NCBI RefSeq assembly: GCF_002020135.1
Contig: NZ_MPZS01000001.1
Location: 1,860,001-1,924,000 of the forward strand
DNA: 64,000 bases
Reading direction: 5' to 3'
Source of the DNA: Thioclava marina
Lineage (GTDB): Bacteria > Pseudomonadota > Alphaproteobacteria > Rhodobacterales > Rhodobacteraceae
Shown here: positions 24,997 to 30,974 of the stretch, piece after piece
How the letters are laid out: each line of letters starts with the position of its first letter
How positions within the stretch are numbered: position 1 is the first letter of the stretch
Made by a program: the position numbers and the translations under genes
The notes under the pieces: model-generated
What the model saw: the letters and a program-made list of their open reading frames with translations, nothing else
Told to the model about the DNA's origin: nothing
Databases searched by the model: none

Positions 24997-25635
24997 CTAA
25001 ATGCGGAAGATCGGTTGCAGCAGCCGCGGCAGGAAGCTCTTGAATTTCAGTGGCGCGTCGGTTGCTGCAAGGCAGATGCAGACGTCCTCCATCCCGGCAA
25101 CCGGGGTGTGGTCGAGATCGTCGCTGGCCACTTCCACGTCACCGACGCCGAACCGCCCGGTCTCATCCGAGAACGAACCCTGCAAGACCAGTGTCAGCTC
25201 CAGCCCGTTATGGCCATGATCGGGCACGGCCATGCCCGGCGGGATGTAAAGCAATCGGGCCGAGCCCTCGCGATCCTCGCTCAGGATTGCCTGACGAATA
25301 CCGCCGCCAAGCGCGCGCCAGCGCGGTTCGGCCCCACCCATCGCCTCGACGACGGCACCGGGATAAATGCCCGAGCGCGCGGGTGCGGTGAATGCCGCCG
25401 GCGGATCGCTGTCGAGCCCGTCAAAGACCCGTTTGCGCAGATCGTCGCTTGCAGAGACCGCGTCGAGCGATTCCAGAACGACCCCCCCGGCCAACTCCTC
25501 GGCTTCCAGCCGCGCCCGACAGTCGTCGCATTGGCTCACATGTGCCGCCACGACCAGCGAAAACGCATGGCCCAGCGAGCCGGTCGCATAGGACCGGATC
25601 AGCCAATCGGGCAAATGATGCGTAATCTCCGTCAT
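24997..25635 (-). CDS. chrR: ChrR-type zinc anti-sigma factor
   Basis: 212 residues. The N-terminal zinc anti-sigma domain has His6/His7, His32, Cys36 and Cys39 (AAHVSQCDDC), matching the H-H-x3-C-x2-C ligand set of R. sphaeroides ChrR. A cupin domain follows, with DHGHNGLE giving His140, His142 and Glu146, and His176 in DDLDHTPVA, again nearly superposable in number on the R. sphaeroides cupin ligands. ChrR holds RpoE inactive until singlet oxygen or peroxide releases it. Its ATG overlaps the rpoE stop (ATGA), so both are cotranscribed. Confidence 0.93.
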   Translation of the reverse strand: MTEITHHLPDWLIRSYATGSLGHAFSLVVAAHVSQCDDCRARLEAEELAGGVVLESLDAVSASDDLRKRVFDGLDSDPPAAFTAPARSGIYPGAVVEAMGGAEPRWRALGGGIRQAILSEDREGSARLLYIPPGMAVPDHGHNGLELTLVLQGSFSDETGRFGVGDVEVASDDLDHTPVAGMEDVCICLAATDAPLKFKSFLPRLLQPIFRI

Positions 25636-26219
25636 TCCTCTCTCAGATCCTTCAATTCGTGCCGCAGTTTCTCCAGCGCCAACCGGATCCGCGACTTGAT
25701 CGTTCCCAGTGCAAGGCCCGTTGCCTCGCGAATTTCTGCCTGAGTGAGCTCGCCCACATAGGCGCGCTCGATGATCTCGCGCTGCGCTTCGGGCAGGGTC
25801 TCGAGCGCCTGGCGCAGCTGTGCGGCTTCCTGTTCCAACCCGACCAGAGCATCGGCCTCGGGCGACTCGCGCGTTTCGGCCTCGGCAATCATCTCGTCTG
25901 GAACGGGGCGCGGGCGCCTCCGGATCACATCGATCTGCCGATTGCGCGCGATCCGGTAAATCCAGGCCGAAGCCCGGGCCCTGCTCTCATCGTAGAGATG
26001 GGCCTTGTGCCAGATCGTCAGCATCACATCCTGCACCACGTCTTCCGCCGCCGCGCCGGACATCCCCGAACGCATCAGCATCCCCTTCAGACGCGGCACG
26101 AAGTGATCGTAGAGCCGCGCGAAGGCTGCCTTGTCGCGTCGATCCCGCACCGCGACCAGCCATTCGGTCTGTTCGCAGGCCTCGTCGGACGCATTTGCTG
26201 ACGTTTTGCGGTTGTCCAT
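25632..26219 (-). CDS. rpoE: RpoE-type ECF sigma factor
   Basis: 195 residues from an ATG with GGGAAGAG upstream. The frame is open another 51 codons, but these lie in the promoter region. Region 2 is FARLYDHFVPRLKGMLMR through WIYRIARNRQIDVIRR; region 4 is LRQALETLPEAQREIIERAY through LGTIKSRIRLALEKLRHEL. Coupling to chrR marks it as the ChrR-controlled group that directs the singlet-oxygen response. It is divergent from the lipid-modification operon, and a TGATCT box on its own strand suggests autoregulation. Confidence 0.93.
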   Translation of the reverse strand: MDNRKTSANASDEACEQTEWLVAVRDRRDKAAFARLYDHFVPRLKGMLMRSGMSGAAAEDVVQDVMLTIWHKAHLYDESRARASAWIYRIARNRQIDVIRRRPRPVPDEMIAEAETRESPEADALVGLEQEAAQLRQALETLPEAQREIIERAYVGELTQAEIREATGLALGTIKSRIRLALEKLRHELKDLREE

Positions 26220-26304
26220 TCTCTTCCCGGCAGAGGCGAGCCCCGCCGCCATTGGCGCGGGCAATTTCGTCTCAAGGTTTGTGGTCGCTTCCCTCAGCAT
26301 GAAC

Positions 26305-26334
26305 CAACTACGCGCACAATGCGCAGACAGATCA
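26305..26334 (-). promoter_or_regulatory. Candidate sigma-E promoter of rpoE-chrR
   Basis: On the minus strand TGATCT (26334-26329), an 18-base spacer and TAGTTG (26310-26305). The -35 is one base from TGATCC, the known -35 of RpoE-dependent promoters in R. sphaeroides. It lies about 86 bases before the rpoE start. Confidence 0.5.
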
Positions 26335-26354
26335 CACGGAGGCGAAAAAACTTC

Positions 26355-26384
26355 TGATCCAAACCCTAACATCCGCCGTTACGT
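26355..26384 (+). promoter_or_regulatory. Candidate sigma-E promoter of the lipid-modification operon
   Basis: TGATCC (26355-26360), an 18-base spacer and TTACGT (26379-26384), 24 bases before the ATG of the amine-oxidase-like gene. The -35 is identical to that of RpoE-dependent promoters of R. sphaeroides. With the opposite-strand box it forms a divergent pair 20 bases apart. Confidence 0.6.
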
Positions 26385-26408
26385 CTTCAAGTCTTTGGGA
26401 GAACTGCG

Positions 26409-27719
26409 ATGTCCTTCGATGCCTTGCATCCTCACGCCCAGCGGATCGCCATAATTGGATCTGGGATCTCGGGTCTCGCCGCGGCCTGGCAGCTGGCGCC
26501 GCACAACCGCGTGACGGTGTTCGAGGCGGAAGCGCGTCTTGGCGGCCATTCGCGCACGATCGTTGCGGGGCGCAATGGCGATCAGCCGGTCGATACGGGC
26601 TTCATCGTGTTCAATTACGCTAATTATCCCCACCTGACGCGGCTTTTCTCGGAGCTGGATGTGCCGGTGGAAAAATCGGATATGGGGTTTGGCGTCACGA
26701 TCGATCAGGGGCGGATCGAATACGCGCTGCGCGACCTCGGCAGCCTGTTTGCCCAAAAGCGTAACCTGTTGCGGCCGGGATTTGGCCGGATGATCGCCGA
26801 TATCGCGAAGTTCAACACCAAGGCGGTCGCGCTGGCGCAAAGTGACGATGTGACGATCGATCAGCTGCTTGACGAGCTGCGTATGGGAGAGTGGTTCCGC
26901 CGCTATTATCTTCTGCCCATCTGCGGCGCGATCTGGTCGACCCCGGCGGACACGATCGGGGAATTTCCGGCCCGCAGCCTTCTGCGCTTCTTCGAGAACC
27001 ACGCGCTCTTGTCGGCCACCGGGCAACATCAGTGGTGGACGGTTTCGGGCGGCTCGATCGAATATGTGAAGCGGCTGGAGCGTGCCTTGCGCCTGCGCGG
27101 GGTCGAATTCCGCCTAGGCTCGGCAGTGAAAGCGATTCAGCGCAGCCCGAAATCAGTCACTATTTCAGTGGAAAATGCTGCTCCGGAACAGTTCGATCAG
27201 GTGATCATCGCCACGCATTCCGATCAGGCACTCAAGCTTTTGCCGAACCCGACCGGGGAGGAGCGCACGGCACTTTCGGCGGTGCGCTATCAGCCCAACG
27301 ATGTCTATCTGCATCGCGACGAACGCCAGATGCCCGTGCGGCGTGCCTGCTGGTCGAGTTGGGTCTATCAGGCGCAGACGCGAGCGAACGAGACCCGCCT
27401 TGGCGTGACCTACTGGATGAACCGGTTGCAAAATATTCCCGAGAGCGATCCGCTCTTTGTCACGCTCAATCCCGAGAACCCGATTGCCGATGAAGCGATC
27501 TATGATCACGAGGTTTTCTGGCATCCCGTTTTCGACCGCGCGGCCCTGCGGGCTCAGGAACAGATTCAGGCGATTCAGGGCCAGAACCGGACTTGGTATG
27601 CGGGCGCGTGGCTGCGGCACGGGTTCCACGAGGACGGCTTTGCCTCGGCGGTACGGGTTGCCCGCGCGCTCAATCGCGGCGCCATCCCCGCATCCGAGCT
27701 TGAGGCGGTCCCCGCATGA
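26409..27719 (+). CDS. FAD-dependent amine-oxidase-like protein, UfaD-type candidate
   Basis: 436 residues. The FAD motif IAIIGSGISGLAAAWQLAP is followed by VFEAEARLGGHSRT, the PVDTGFIVFNYANYPHLTRLF segment typical of this group, and a C-terminal FAD region (NRTWYAGAWLRHGFHEDGFASA). In R. sphaeroides the homologous gene beside rpoE-chrR (RSP_1091) is needed to turn methylated unsaturated fatty acyl chains into furan fatty acids; such proteins act as desaturases of phospholipid acyl chains. GGGAGA precedes the ATG and a TGATCC promoter box lies upstream. The stop overlaps the DUF1365 gene by four bases. Confidence 0.88.
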   Translation: MSFDALHPHAQRIAIIGSGISGLAAAWQLAPHNRVTVFEAEARLGGHSRTIVAGRNGDQPVDTGFIVFNYANYPHLTRLFSELDVPVEKSDMGFGVTIDQGRIEYALRDLGSLFAQKRNLLRPGFGRMIADIAKFNTKAVALAQSDDVTIDQLLDELRMGEWFRRYYLLPICGAIWSTPADTIGEFPARSLLRFFENHALLSATGQHQWWTVSGGSIEYVKRLERALRLRGVEFRLGSAVKAIQRSPKSVTISVENAAPEQFDQVIIATHSDQALKLLPNPTGEERTALSAVRYQPNDVYLHRDERQMPVRRACWSSWVYQAQTRANETRLGVTYWMNRLQNIPESDPLFVTLNPENPIADEAIYDHEVFWHPVFDRAALRAQEQIQAIQGQNRTWYAGAWLRHGFHEDGFASAVRVARALNRGAIPASELEAVPA

Positions 27720-28468
27720 TCGCCCAGTTCTGCCCCGGCGAAACGACCCATGCGCGCCGCGGCTCGATCGGGCACAAGTTTCGCTATCACGTGGATTATG
27801 TGTTGCTCGATCCCGAGGCGCACGGTCCTTGGCCGCGCCTTTTCTCACGAAAGGGCGGCAATCTCGCGCGGGTGGATGACCGCGATTATGGCGGGGCGCC
27901 GGGGAAGGGCGAGGGGGCGGCCTGGGTGCGCCGCAAGCTGGCCGAATTCGGGGCGCCGGAGCCTGCACGGCTGTTTTTGCTGACGCAGCCGCGGATCTTC
28001 GGCTCGGGCTTCAATCCGGTGAATTTCTGGCTGGTCTATGATGGCGGGGATAAGCTCCGCTGTGTGATCGCGGAGGTGAACAATACTTTCGGCGACCGGC
28101 ACTCCTACCTCTGTGCGACACCCCAATTCGACCCTATTACAGCGGAAACCGAGCTTCAGGCGGAGAAAATCTTTCACGTTTCTCCCTTTCAGAAGATCGC
28201 GGGCGAATACCGCTTCCGCTTCCATATCGACGCCGAGCGGATCCGCATCCGCATCGACCATCGCAACGGTGAGGAGGGGGTGATCGCCACGCTCACCACC
28301 GCACGCCGCCCGCTCAGCTCGAAAGCGCTGCTGATGGCTGCGATACGCCGTCCGCTTACTCCGATCCGCACGCTGGGCCTGATCTATTGGCAGGCTCTGC
28401 AACTCAAGCTCAAAGGCGCGCGCTACCTGCCGCGTCCGACACCCCCAAGCGAGGAGATCAGCCGATGA
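27716..28468 (+). CDS. DUF1365 protein
   Basis: 250 residues. Family features are HARRGSIGHKFRYHVDYVLLD near the N-terminus, LLTQPRIFGSGFNPVNFWLVYD, VIAEVNNTFGDRHSYL and EKIFHVSPFQ. The biochemical function is unknown, but the family is nearly always found between a FAD amine-oxidase-like gene and a cyclopropane-fatty-acid-synthase-like gene, and the R. sphaeroides counterpart (RSP_1090) belongs to the RpoE regulon. ATGA overlaps with both neighbours indicate one operon. Confidence 0.9.
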   Translation: MIAQFCPGETTHARRGSIGHKFRYHVDYVLLDPEAHGPWPRLFSRKGGNLARVDDRDYGGAPGKGEGAAWVRRKLAEFGAPEPARLFLLTQPRIFGSGFNPVNFWLVYDGGDKLRCVIAEVNNTFGDRHSYLCATPQFDPITAETELQAEKIFHVSPFQKIAGEYRFRFHIDAERIRIRIDHRNGEEGVIATLTTARRPLSSKALLMAAIRRPLTPIRTLGLIYWQALQLKLKGARYLPRPTPPSEEISR

Positions 28469-29631
28469 TGCCCTTCCTGACGAACCGCATCCGCGCGGAA
28501 TTTCTCGATATGTGCGAGCGGATTTCGCACGGGTCCCTGACCCTGCGCCTTCCCGACGGCACGCGGCGCCATTTCGGACGTGGCCAGCCGCAGGCCGAGA
28601 TGGAGATCCGCGACTGGCAGGCGGTGGTGATGATGGCCTCGCGCGGCGATGTCGGCCTGGGCGAGGCCTATATTGCGGGTCTCTGGGAGACGCCCTCGAT
28701 CGAAGCGCTTCTGAGCGTTGCGCTCAAGAACCTCGAACTGGTCGACAGCTACGCCTATGCGGGCTTCTGGTCGAACCTGAAATTCCGGATCATCGACCGG
28801 TTGATGCGGGCGAATTCTCTGCGTGGCGCCTCGCGCAATATCCGTGCGCATTACGATGTCGGCAACGAGTTCTACCAGATCTGGCTTGATGAGGGGATGA
28901 GCTATTCCTCTGCGCTTTTCGCCCCGGGCGATCGCGATCTTCACCGGGCGCAGAACCGCAAGCTCGACCGGATTCTCGATAGTCTGGGCGATGGCGAGCG
29001 GGTGCTGGAGATCGGCTGCGGCTGGGGCCATTTTGCCGAGCGCGCGGCCGAGCAGGGGCGCCACGTCACGGGCATCACCATCTCGCCCAGCCAGAAAGGT
29101 TACGCCGATGCGCGGCTCGACGGGCGGGCGGAAATCCGGCTTCAGGATTACCGCAAGACCCCCGGCACATTCGATCACATCGTGTCGATCGAAATGATCG
29201 AGGCCGTGGGCGAGCGCTATTGGCCAACCTACTTCGCCACGCTCAAGGAGCGCCTGAGCGAGGGTGGATCTGCGATGATTCAGGCCATAACAGTTTCTGA
29301 TTCCTACTTCCCGACCTATCGCAAGACGTCGGACTTCATCCGCCAATATACGTTCCCCGGCGGGATGCTTCTGTCGGACGGCGTGATCCGCGATCAGGCG
29401 GCGAAGGCGGGGCTTGCGGTCAAGGAAAGCTTCGCCTTCGGTCAGGATTACGCAGAGACCTGCCGACAATGGGCAACCCGGTTGAAAGAGCGCAGCGCGC
29501 GCGCCGCCCAGCTTGGCTTCGGGCCGGAGTTTCTGCGCAACTGGCAGTATTACCTCGAGGCCTGCGCGGCCGCCTTCGCGGTCGGTCATACCAACGTGGT
29601 GCAGGTCCAGCTGGCACATGTGAGGGCTTGA
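28465..29631 (+). CDS. Cyclopropane-fatty-acid synthase-family SAM methyltransferase
   Basis: 388 residues from an ATG with GAGGAG upstream. Motifs are HYDVGNEFYQIWLDEGMSYS (about 129-148), the SAM site VLEIGCGWGHFAERA (about 180-194), GITISPSQKGYA and SIEMIEAVGERYW (Glu246). It transfers a methylene or methyl group from SAM to a lipid double bond. Of the residues that bind bicarbonate in E. coli Cfa, Glu is kept, but Cys is Ser149 and His is Gln273. That suggests the product could be a methylated rather than a cyclopropane chain, as in UfaM. The protein is translationally coupled to the DUF1365 gene. Confidence 0.92.
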   Translation: MMPFLTNRIRAEFLDMCERISHGSLTLRLPDGTRRHFGRGQPQAEMEIRDWQAVVMMASRGDVGLGEAYIAGLWETPSIEALLSVALKNLELVDSYAYAGFWSNLKFRIIDRLMRANSLRGASRNIRAHYDVGNEFYQIWLDEGMSYSSALFAPGDRDLHRAQNRKLDRILDSLGDGERVLEIGCGWGHFAERAAEQGRHVTGITISPSQKGYADARLDGRAEIRLQDYRKTPGTFDHIVSIEMIEAVGERYWPTYFATLKERLSEGGSAMIQAITVSDSYFPTYRKTSDFIRQYTFPGGMLLSDGVIRDQAAKAGLAVKESFAFGQDYAETCRQWATRLKERSARAAQLGFGPEFLRNWQYYLEACAAAFAVGHTNVVQVQLAHVRA

Positions 29632-29632
29632 G

Positions 29633-30199
29633 ATGTTGACCAAGATCCTTCTGGCTTTGGCGATCCTCATTTTGGCGGCGATCCTGATCCGTCACCTCTT
29701 CTTCGCCTTCCCCGCGCAGACCAGCGCGGACTATGCCGCCGAGACCCCGGAATTCGACATTCGCCGCGCTTTCGAGGGGCCCGTTGAGGCGCATGGGATG
29801 ATCTACGGCCCGACCGGCCGCATCACGTCGCGGTTTCGGGCGATCATGCGGGGCAGCTTCACCAATGAAGGCGGCGTGATCGAGGAAGAATTCGACTATG
29901 CCTCGGGCCGCCGCCAAACCCGCGCCTGGAACATCCAGTTCGGGCCCGATGGCGAGATCAGCTCCACCGCCGCCGATATTGAGGGCACCGCAGAGATGGA
30001 GCAGATGGGCAACGCCCTGCGGATGCGCTACCGGCTGCGCCTGCCGGAAGATGCGGGCGGGCATGTGCTCGACGTGACAGACTGGATCTACCTGATGCCG
30101 GACGGGACGATGCTGAACCGCTCGCAGATGCGCAAATTCGGGGTCAAGGTAGCAGAGCTTTTCGCGGTCATGCGCCCGATGGTCGAACCGGCCGAGTGA
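29633..30199 (+). CDS. DUF3833 protein, membrane-anchored
   Basis: 188 residues with one N-terminal hydrophobic helix (about 4-26), so probably an inner-membrane anchor with the rest in the periplasm. DUF3833 hallmarks are YGPTGRITSRFRAIM, EEFDYASGRRQTRAW, IEGTAEMEQMGNALRMRY and DWIYLMPDGTMLNRSQMRKF. Function unknown; homologues in gamma- and alphaproteobacteria sit at the end of amine-oxidase / DUF1365 / Cfa operons. The ATG is one base after the preceding stop, and the gene ends directly against the mtgA stop. Confidence 0.88.
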   Translation: MLTKILLALAILILAAILIRHLFFAFPAQTSADYAAETPEFDIRRAFEGPVEAHGMIYGPTGRITSRFRAIMRGSFTNEGGVIEEEFDYASGRRQTRAWNIQFGPDGEISSTAADIEGTAEMEQMGNALRMRYRLRLPEDAGGHVLDVTDWIYLMPDGTMLNRSQMRKFGVKVAELFAVMRPMVEPAE

Positions 30200-30943
30200 T
30201 CACTCGAAACAGCTTGCGCGACCGTCATTCTTGATCGTCGCGGCCCCATCCATGATCGACTGCGCCCGCCGCGCGAGGAATTTCGTAGGCTTCGCGGCGG
30301 AGCGATCCTTCGGATCGGGGAGCACGGCGGCGATCAGGGCGGACTGATACGGGCTGAGCTTGTCGGGCGAGGTGCGGAAATAGCGGAAGGCGGCCGCATC
30401 GACCCCGAAGGCGCCCTCGTCGAACTCGGCGACGTTCAGATAAATCTCGAGGATGCGGCGCTTGCCCCAGATCGCCTCGACGAAGGGGGTCAGAACCGCT
30501 TCCATCGCCTTGCGCGGCCAGCTGCGTCCTTGCCAGAGAAAGACGTTCTTGACCGTTTGCTGGGTGATCGTCGAAGCGCCGCGATTGCCGCCCTCGTCGA
30601 GGGCCTCGCGGATCGCGCGCATGTCGAAGCCCCAGTGATTGCAGAAATTCGCATCCTCCGCGGCCACGACAGACCGCGCGAGCACCGGTGAGATCTCCTC
30701 GAGGGCGACCCATTGCTGATCCACTGCACCAAGGCGCTGGCGTTCGCTCCACATCGTCCAGGTGGTCGGCGGGTTCACGAATTTGAACGTCACGATCAGC
30801 GCCAGAAGCACCGCGACGAAAACGAGTGCGCCCCGACCAAGCCATTTCAACGCCACCCGAAACGGGGCGCCTGCCGCTTGGCTGAGGCCGGAACGGGCCT
30901 TGCGCTTGCCCGAGGTTCTGCTCGTTTTCTTCTTCGTCGCCAT
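30200..30943 (-). CDS. mtgA: Monofunctional peptidoglycan transglycosylase
   Basis: 247 residues. A basic N-terminal tail and one transmembrane helix (about 38-58) are followed by the GT51 domain: SRSVVAAEDANFCNHWGFD-type motif (first catalytic Glu), GGNRGASTITQQTVKNVFLW, RKAMEAVLTPFVEAIWGKRRILEIYLN and NVAEFDEGAFGVDAAAFRYF. It polymerises lipid II at the outer face of the inner membrane and has no transpeptidase domain. The ATG (MATKKK) is preferred over one five codons earlier; neither has a strong ribosome-binding site. Confidence 0.95.
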   Translation of the reverse strand: MATKKKTSRTSGKRKARSGLSQAAGAPFRVALKWLGRGALVFVAVLLALIVTFKFVNPPTTWTMWSERQRLGAVDQQWVALEEISPVLARSVVAAEDANFCNHWGFDMRAIREALDEGGNRGASTITQQTVKNVFLWQGRSWPRKAMEAVLTPFVEAIWGKRRILEIYLNVAEFDEGAFGVDAAAFRYFRTSPDKLSPYQSALIAAVLPDPKDRSAAKPTKFLARRAQSIMDGAATIKNDGRASCFE

Positions 30944-30974
30944 GCGCCCATAAGTCATGGGGAGGCGGGACCGG

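Follow-up and report, generated by a model that had tools for sequence, protein, structure and literature searches.

Here, we describe a locus in a 64,000-nucleotide stretch of the Thioclava marina genome (hereafter the window; NCBI RefSeq assembly GCF_002020135.1, contig NZ_MPZS01000001.1, positions 1,860,001 to 1,924,000 of the forward strand). In it, the gene pair rpoE-chrR diverges from a run of four genes, ufaD, ufaO, ufaM, and a gene encoding a DUF3833 protein. Coordinates are those of the window.

Genes and promoters of the locus

The chrR gene (24997-25635, minus strand) encodes the anti-sigma factor of RpoE, a ChrR-family protein with a cupin domain (TIGR02451, 185.6 bits against a cut-off of 124.5; Pfam Cupin_7). 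Residues H6, H32, C36, and C39, the zinc ligands in Rhodobacter sphaeroides ChrR, are present in its sequence. The rpoE gene (25632-26219, minus strand) encodes a sigma factor of the extracytoplasmic function (ECF) type containing both sigma regions, 2 and 4 (Pfam Sigma70_r2 and Sigma70_r4_2). Its start was set at the position from which Thioclava relatives align from residue 1, and longer starts are possible in frame. On the plus strand lie ufaD (26409-27719; PF01593, 85.5 bits), a putative desaturase of methylated acyl chains dependent on flavin adenine dinucleotide (FAD); ufaO (27716-28468; PF07103, that is DUF1365, 225.2 bits over model positions 2-235 of 235), a putative O2-dependent furan-forming enzyme; and ufaM (28465-29631; PF02353, 247.7 bits), a putative vaccenate methyltransferase of the CMAS/Cfa-like kind that would use S-adenosylmethionine. 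The DUF3833 gene follows (29633-30199; PF12915, 172.9 bits), and the structure model of its product has an N-terminal membrane helix and a predicted calycin-like barrel. The ufaD, ufaO, and ufaM reading frames are all open. Reading the DNA directly, we found ATGA overlaps at rpoE/chrR, ufaD/ufaO, and ufaO/ufaM, and a gap of 1 base between ufaM and DUF3833. An earlier note on this DNA had described the divergent layout, and the open reading frames, the Pfam and NCBIfam matches, and the DNA agree with it in positions and junctions. Its interval, 25632-30199, contains the genes as placed but leaves the body of chrR outside.

A promoter of the RpoE type was found by motif search before each operon: TGATCT-N16-CGTA before rpoE-chrR (26309-26334, minus strand) and TGATCC-N16-CGTT before the ufa operon (26355-26380, plus strand). 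Each differs by one base from the consensus TGATCC-N16-CGTA. We searched for TGATC[CT]-N15-18-CGT[AT] in the stretch between rpoE and ufaD of the window and of 72 distinct named loci, 73 regions in all. A match was obtained toward ufaD in 63, toward rpoE in 69, and in both directions in 61, window included; the misses include one region (L150) of zero length as extracted. By comparison, 0.14% of single-base shuffles match on one strand. On the ufaD side, the -10 element reads CGTT in the window and four named Thioclava regions and CGTA in all 58 other matches. Across the 3.65 Mb of the T. marina genome the pattern matches 59 times, versus 2 for the backward pattern, and with 59 matches a genome-wide list of RpoE targets drawn from the pattern alone was dropped. 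Seven of the 59 were inspected, and two precede genes named by family search, both outside the window; the ufaD promoter itself is among the other 52. TGATCC-N16-CGTA stands upstream of msrP-msrQ (methionine-sulfoxide repair; C1:2096857), a possible further RpoE target, and TGATCC-N16-CGTT upstream of a pyruvate-kinase-like gene (C3:432).

The comparable switch has been studied in R. sphaeroides, where rpoE-chrR and RSP_1091-1087 each have their own RpoE promoter and where singlet oxygen activates RpoE fully only if RSP_1091 and RSP_1090 are present (PMC3818230). According to a review, turnover of ChrR by singlet oxygen requires furan fatty acids (PMC6852236). A system of this kind, with TGATCC-N16-CGTA as its motif, is also present in Pseudomonas syringae (PMC5507510). 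For the enzymes, Lemke and colleagues reported that UfaM methylates cis-vaccenoyl chains in phospholipids, that UfaD yields a methyl-diene, and that UfaO, a DUF1365 protein, forms the furan ring with oxygen taken from O2 (PMC7380195). In Rhodopseudomonas palustris, RPA2571, 2570, and 2569 are ufaD, ufaO, and ufaM, occupy consecutive locus tags, and are necessary and sufficient for the mono-methyl furan chain (PMC7380195).

All three enzyme families are present in the window in the order D-O-M, as in R. palustris, and the FAD enzyme, the DUF1365 protein, and the Cfa-like protein fit as counterparts of UfaD, UfaO, and UfaM, respectively. The T. marina genome encodes another full-length CMAS protein (C2:250927) that scores 324 bits versus 249 for the in-cluster copy in this general family; a further match in the genome is short and partial, at 40 bits. 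We assign UfaM to the in-cluster copy on the basis of its position after ufaO. UfaO has 44 invariant columns across 61 homologues, window included, and its predicted model is confident (predicted local distance difference test, pLDDT, 93.3). Among solved structures it has no clear counterpart: the model gave a best Foldseek E of 0.0012, with none at or below 0.001, and a best Z of 7.4, within the warning range of the tool. Sequence matches of UfaO to RNase P protein and to the methane monooxygenase gamma chain (E 0.03 to 0.9) were judged to be chance. The earlier note had counted DUF1365 among the undescribed parts; it is the family of UfaO, whose furan ring formation with O2 was shown in 2020 (PMC7380195).

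We consider it very probable that the locus is an ECF11 RpoE-ChrR singlet-oxygen switch beside a furan-fatty-acid operon under its control. The oxidant-triggered membrane-lipid pathway proposed in the earlier note is borne out insofar as the enzymes fit the published furan-fatty-acid set in family and gene order and each operon has an RpoE-type promoter in front of it. Both the module and the pathway are known already, and the window adds one genus.

Gene order and upstream motifs in relatives

A genome scan with a DUF3833 alignment gave 561 confirmed candidates, and the best 80, selected by DUF3833 alone, form the set of named loci to which the following counts refer. Their record titles are nearly all Rhodobacteraceae, with one Proteobacteria and one Flavobacteriia; R. 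sphaeroides and R. palustris do not appear in them. The record titled Flavobacteriia bacterium (L082) is identical in length, contig label, and match to a Roseobacter record (L081) and is probably a mislabelled or contaminated metagenome bin. The genes chrR, rpoE, ufaD, and ufaO lie beside DUF3833 at 73 of the 80 loci, and ufaM is inside the cluster at 36. All six genes stand in order, with or without intervening genes, at 32 loci, among which L081 and L082 are apparently one contig. The six genes also occur in identical order in 11 of 15 other sampled Thioclava species. Because 11/15 species of the genus and 32/80 named loci keep it, this gene order is far beyond chance. The nearest named record among the 80, from which the window's own record may be excluded, is Thioclava pacifica DSM 10166; it has the same six genes, order, and ufaD-side promoter form, and its DUF3833 protein is 96% identical.

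An MFS_2 transporter is found at 58 of the 80 loci and a short-chain dehydrogenase after DUF3833 at 74, some contigs ending early. The commonest order, chrR-rpoE / ufaD-ufaO-MFS_2-DUF3833-dehydrogenase (34 loci), is that of R. sphaeroides. The window has neither gene, so that the word complete, used for its operon in the earlier note, does not hold. An MFS_2-type transporter query gave no match in the T. marina genome (one query, no positive control), and the cluster dehydrogenase gave 21 short-chain dehydrogenase matches there, all at most 38% identical, with no close copy. The window is therefore a shortened form of the cluster. DUF2878 (PF11086), a neighbour in other clusters, had no match in this genome and none in the control genomes either, and is uninformative. 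The R. sphaeroides locus resembles the window in having rpoE-chrR beside ufaD-ufaO and RpoE promoters for both operons, but its ufaM (RSP_2144) is elsewhere, and the transporter and the dehydrogenase are present there. Outside the family, ufaM is the next recognised gene after ufaO at six of nine DUF1365 loci, and MFS_2 precedes DUF3833 in four of those six. In the window, mtgA (30200-30958, minus strand) closes the unit.

The earlier note had also regarded the gathering of everything in one unit as special. This point is undone by the ufaD, ufaO, and ufaM genes of R. palustris (RPA2571-2569, PMC7380195), by the FAD enzyme-DUF1365-cfa runs of P. syringae (PSPTO_1118-1116, PMC5507510) and Aeromonas salmonicida (PMC10012899), by RSP_1091-1087 beside rpoE-chrR, published in 2013 (PMC3818230), and by the whole set found at 32/80 loci.

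Four Thioclava species without detectable ChrR and DUF3833 (G003, G007, G010, and G011; loci L044-L047) retain ufaD-ufaO-ufaM. The RpoE motif was not found in the 350 bases upstream of ufaD in these four. All four carry TGAAAC-N17-CGTA (CGTT in one) 63 to 68 bases before ufaD, a pattern derived from the same four sequences, so that the 4/4 is no independent test. The looser TGAAAC-N14-19-CGT[ATC] occurs at one of 76 named loci, and in 400 kb of one ChrR-less genome the pattern matches at the ufaD site only. Its constant position, its rarity elsewhere, and its lone occurrence in the 400 kb argue that this is a genuine promoter read by another sigma factor, probably one of the ECF kind. Because the -10 element reads CGTATCT in three of the four species, we considered an RpoH promoter. 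Mutant analysis has shown the -35 TTG to be important to both RpoH proteins of R. sphaeroides (PMC3441632). At that place the motif carries GTG or CTG, which makes RpoH unlikely. The upstream sequences thus suggest an apparent change of sigma factor in the ChrR-less Thioclava.

Predicted fold, types, and co-occurrence of DUF3833

A counterpart of the DUF3833 protein can be sought in the R. sphaeroides operon. Its annotation lists a GPH-family symporter (RSP_1089) and a short-chain dehydrogenase (RSP_1087) (PMC7074977), and the RSP_1088 protein is 186 residues long (PMC7380195). Because of this length and its place between the transporter and the dehydrogenase, RSP_1088 is very probably DUF3833. 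The available open-licence literature on DUF3833 yielded no fold or role, an absence that is weak.

The structure of DUF3833 predicted with a 64-sequence alignment consists of an N-terminal helix followed by ten strands in an antiparallel barrel (mean pLDDT 94.1). Among solved folds, the model matches BFA1 (Z 14.8, 3.0 Å over 141 residues), a nitrobindin mutant (Z 13.6), the CpeS lyase (12.4), the cyanobacterial Ycf58 (11.6), which resembles fatty-acid-binding proteins (FABPs), and human FABP3 (10.3). The nitrobindin, FABP, CpeS-type, and BFA1 barrels resemble the predicted ten-strand barrel of DUF3833 at Z 10 to 15. DUF3833 differs from them in its N-terminal membrane helix, or lipobox in five proteins from outside the family, and in having no significant sequence match; its search against the PDB returned five matches with E 0.36 to 1.2. 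The prediction for DUF3833 is thus a calycin-like barrel of ten strands anchored in the membrane, which is new here.

The anchor differs between types of the protein. Among the 80 ufa-linked named DUF3833 proteins, 79 have a membrane helix and no lipobox, as judged by a script confined to residues 1-45 of the open frames, some of them starting too early. The single script match (L136) was read as chance within the membrane helix. In the 64 aligned sequences, cysteine is nowhere the majority residue in the N-terminal region. Relatives outside the family contributed seven DUF3833 proteins, and all five examined carry a lipobox. A second, lipobox-bearing type lies elsewhere in some Rhodobacteraceae, at nine of nine chosen loci (L194-L202, e.g., L199:4726-5304), six of them next to a ttcA homologue, which NCBIfam confirmed in one case. 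At L200, the second type stands in tandem with the first, beside a ufaD homologue.

We surveyed the family with a single genome for each genus, 199 in all, counting DUF3833 of either type and strong matches to ChrR. DUF3833 was present in 130, DUF1365 in 172, and ChrR in 159. All three occurred in 121 genomes, DUF1365 with ChrR in 36, DUF1365 with DUF3833 in 8, DUF1365 alone in 7, ChrR alone in 2, and none in 24. DUF1365 accompanies DUF3833 in 129 of 130 genomes; the exception (G109) carries the ttcA-linked type. ChrR occurs in 157/172 genomes with DUF1365 versus 2/27 without it. DUF3833 is present in 8 of the 15 genomes that have DUF1365 but no ChrR (Fisher p 0.06, uncorrected for kinship), and the tie of DUF3833 to ChrR within DUF1365 genomes is weak. 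Across 41 genomes (40 relatives and T. marina), DUF3833 was found in 21, DUF1365 in 33, and both in 20. Within the genus, DUF3833 is present in 12/12 species with ChrR and absent in 4/4 without detectable ChrR, a pattern that may stem from few events.

Probable function of the locus and alternatives

The locus probably operates as follows. ChrR would keep RpoE inactive and would be lost upon exposure to singlet oxygen or organic peroxide, and the freed RpoE would transcribe rpoE-chrR and ufaD-ufaO-ufaM-DUF3833 from the two diverging promoters. UfaM would methylate the cis-vaccenoyl chains of phospholipids, UfaD would then add a second double bond, and UfaO would insert oxygen from O2 to give a methyl-furan chain. 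This chain would protect the membrane and would be required for ChrR turnover by singlet oxygen. We infer that T. marina makes the same furan product as R. sphaeroides and R. palustris. The evidence presented here consists of gene families, gene order, promoters, and conservation; experiments in R. palustris and R. sphaeroides established the enzyme steps, and those in R. sphaeroides the switch (PMC7380195, PMC3818230). For DUF3833, we tentatively propose, with less than even confidence, that this predicted membrane-tethered barrel holds a hydrophobic ligand after synthesis, most likely the furan or an oxidised acyl chain or a breakdown product.

Several points weigh against these interpretations. 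The pathway in T. marina is read from sequence, and orthology to the R. sphaeroides and R. palustris enzymes is drawn from family, order, promoters, and published text. The CGTT at the Thioclava ufaD promoter is of uncertain strength and may be weaker or tuned. As to DUF3833, 43 of the 172 family genomes with DUF1365 lack it, and one of the 21 DUF3833 genomes in the smaller set (G035, 77% complete) has it without DUF1365. A second type, unlinked to the ufa genes, exists in the family. The fold is secure as a prediction but says little on function: a shared barrel proves none, and a designed barrel matches the model equally (Z 14.9). In P. syringae, the RSP_1088 counterpart is an annotated lipoprotein encoded apart from the ufa genes and without an RpoE-type motif (PMC5507510). 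Deletion of RSP_1088 caused no detectable change in fatty acids (PMC7380195), and RSP_1091 and RSP_1090 alone restored singlet-oxygen resistance to a strain lacking the whole operon (PMC3818230). DUF3833 is therefore neither a required biosynthetic enzyme nor, by the restoration test, a required part of the response. The earlier note had listed it as a part without a known role, and so it stands after the unchanged fatty acids of the RSP_1088 deletion.

The three enzymes could yield a related but different lipid here, for example only an 11-methyl chain, a methyl-diene, or a dimethyl furan. In R. sphaeroides, ufaM alone gives the methyl chain and ufaM with ufaD the methyl-diene chain (PMC7380195). 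However, all three ufa genes are open and overlapping in the window, and UfaO keeps its invariant columns across the homologues; we regard a different product as very improbable. For DUF3833, one alternative is a part in the signal that releases ChrR, in which a membrane barrel senses oxidised lipid and relays it to ChrR proteolysis. The Thioclava pattern, in which the four ChrR-less species lack DUF3833 yet keep ufaD-ufaO-ufaM, speaks for it, but these four species may go back to just one or two ancestral events in which adjacent genes were lost. In the wider family, moreover, the eight genomes with DUF1365 and DUF3833 but no ChrR run counter to it, as do G029, G030, and G032, small genomes of other families that have DUF3833 without ChrR, and the restored R. 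sphaeroides strain, which lacked RSP_1088 (PMC3818230). Such a signalling role therefore appears improbable. DUF3833 could also be a passenger with a general envelope role untied to furan lipids, as the ttcA-adjacent second type and the ufa loci without DUF3833 would suggest. Against this, the 80 best loci were picked by DUF3833 alone, yet 73 of them adjoin chrR, rpoE, ufaD, and ufaO. We hold the passenger role to be less likely than not.

A wider and rather doubtful proposal connects these observations: the ufa operon may be a movable module, which in the Thioclava that lost RpoE-ChrR together with DUF3833 would have come under another sigma factor via TGAAAC-N17-CGTA, while where RpoE-ChrR stays, the DUF3833 barrel would be an accessory handling the furan chain or an oxidation product. 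What is new lies in two leads: DUF3833 is predicted to fold as a barrel, and some relatives appear to have changed sigma factor. The compact Thioclava operon, with no transporter or dehydrogenase at the locus, would offer a clean setting for the function of DUF3833, and the ChrR-less relatives would be a natural experiment on the usefulness of furan lipids when the ChrR feedback loop is absent.

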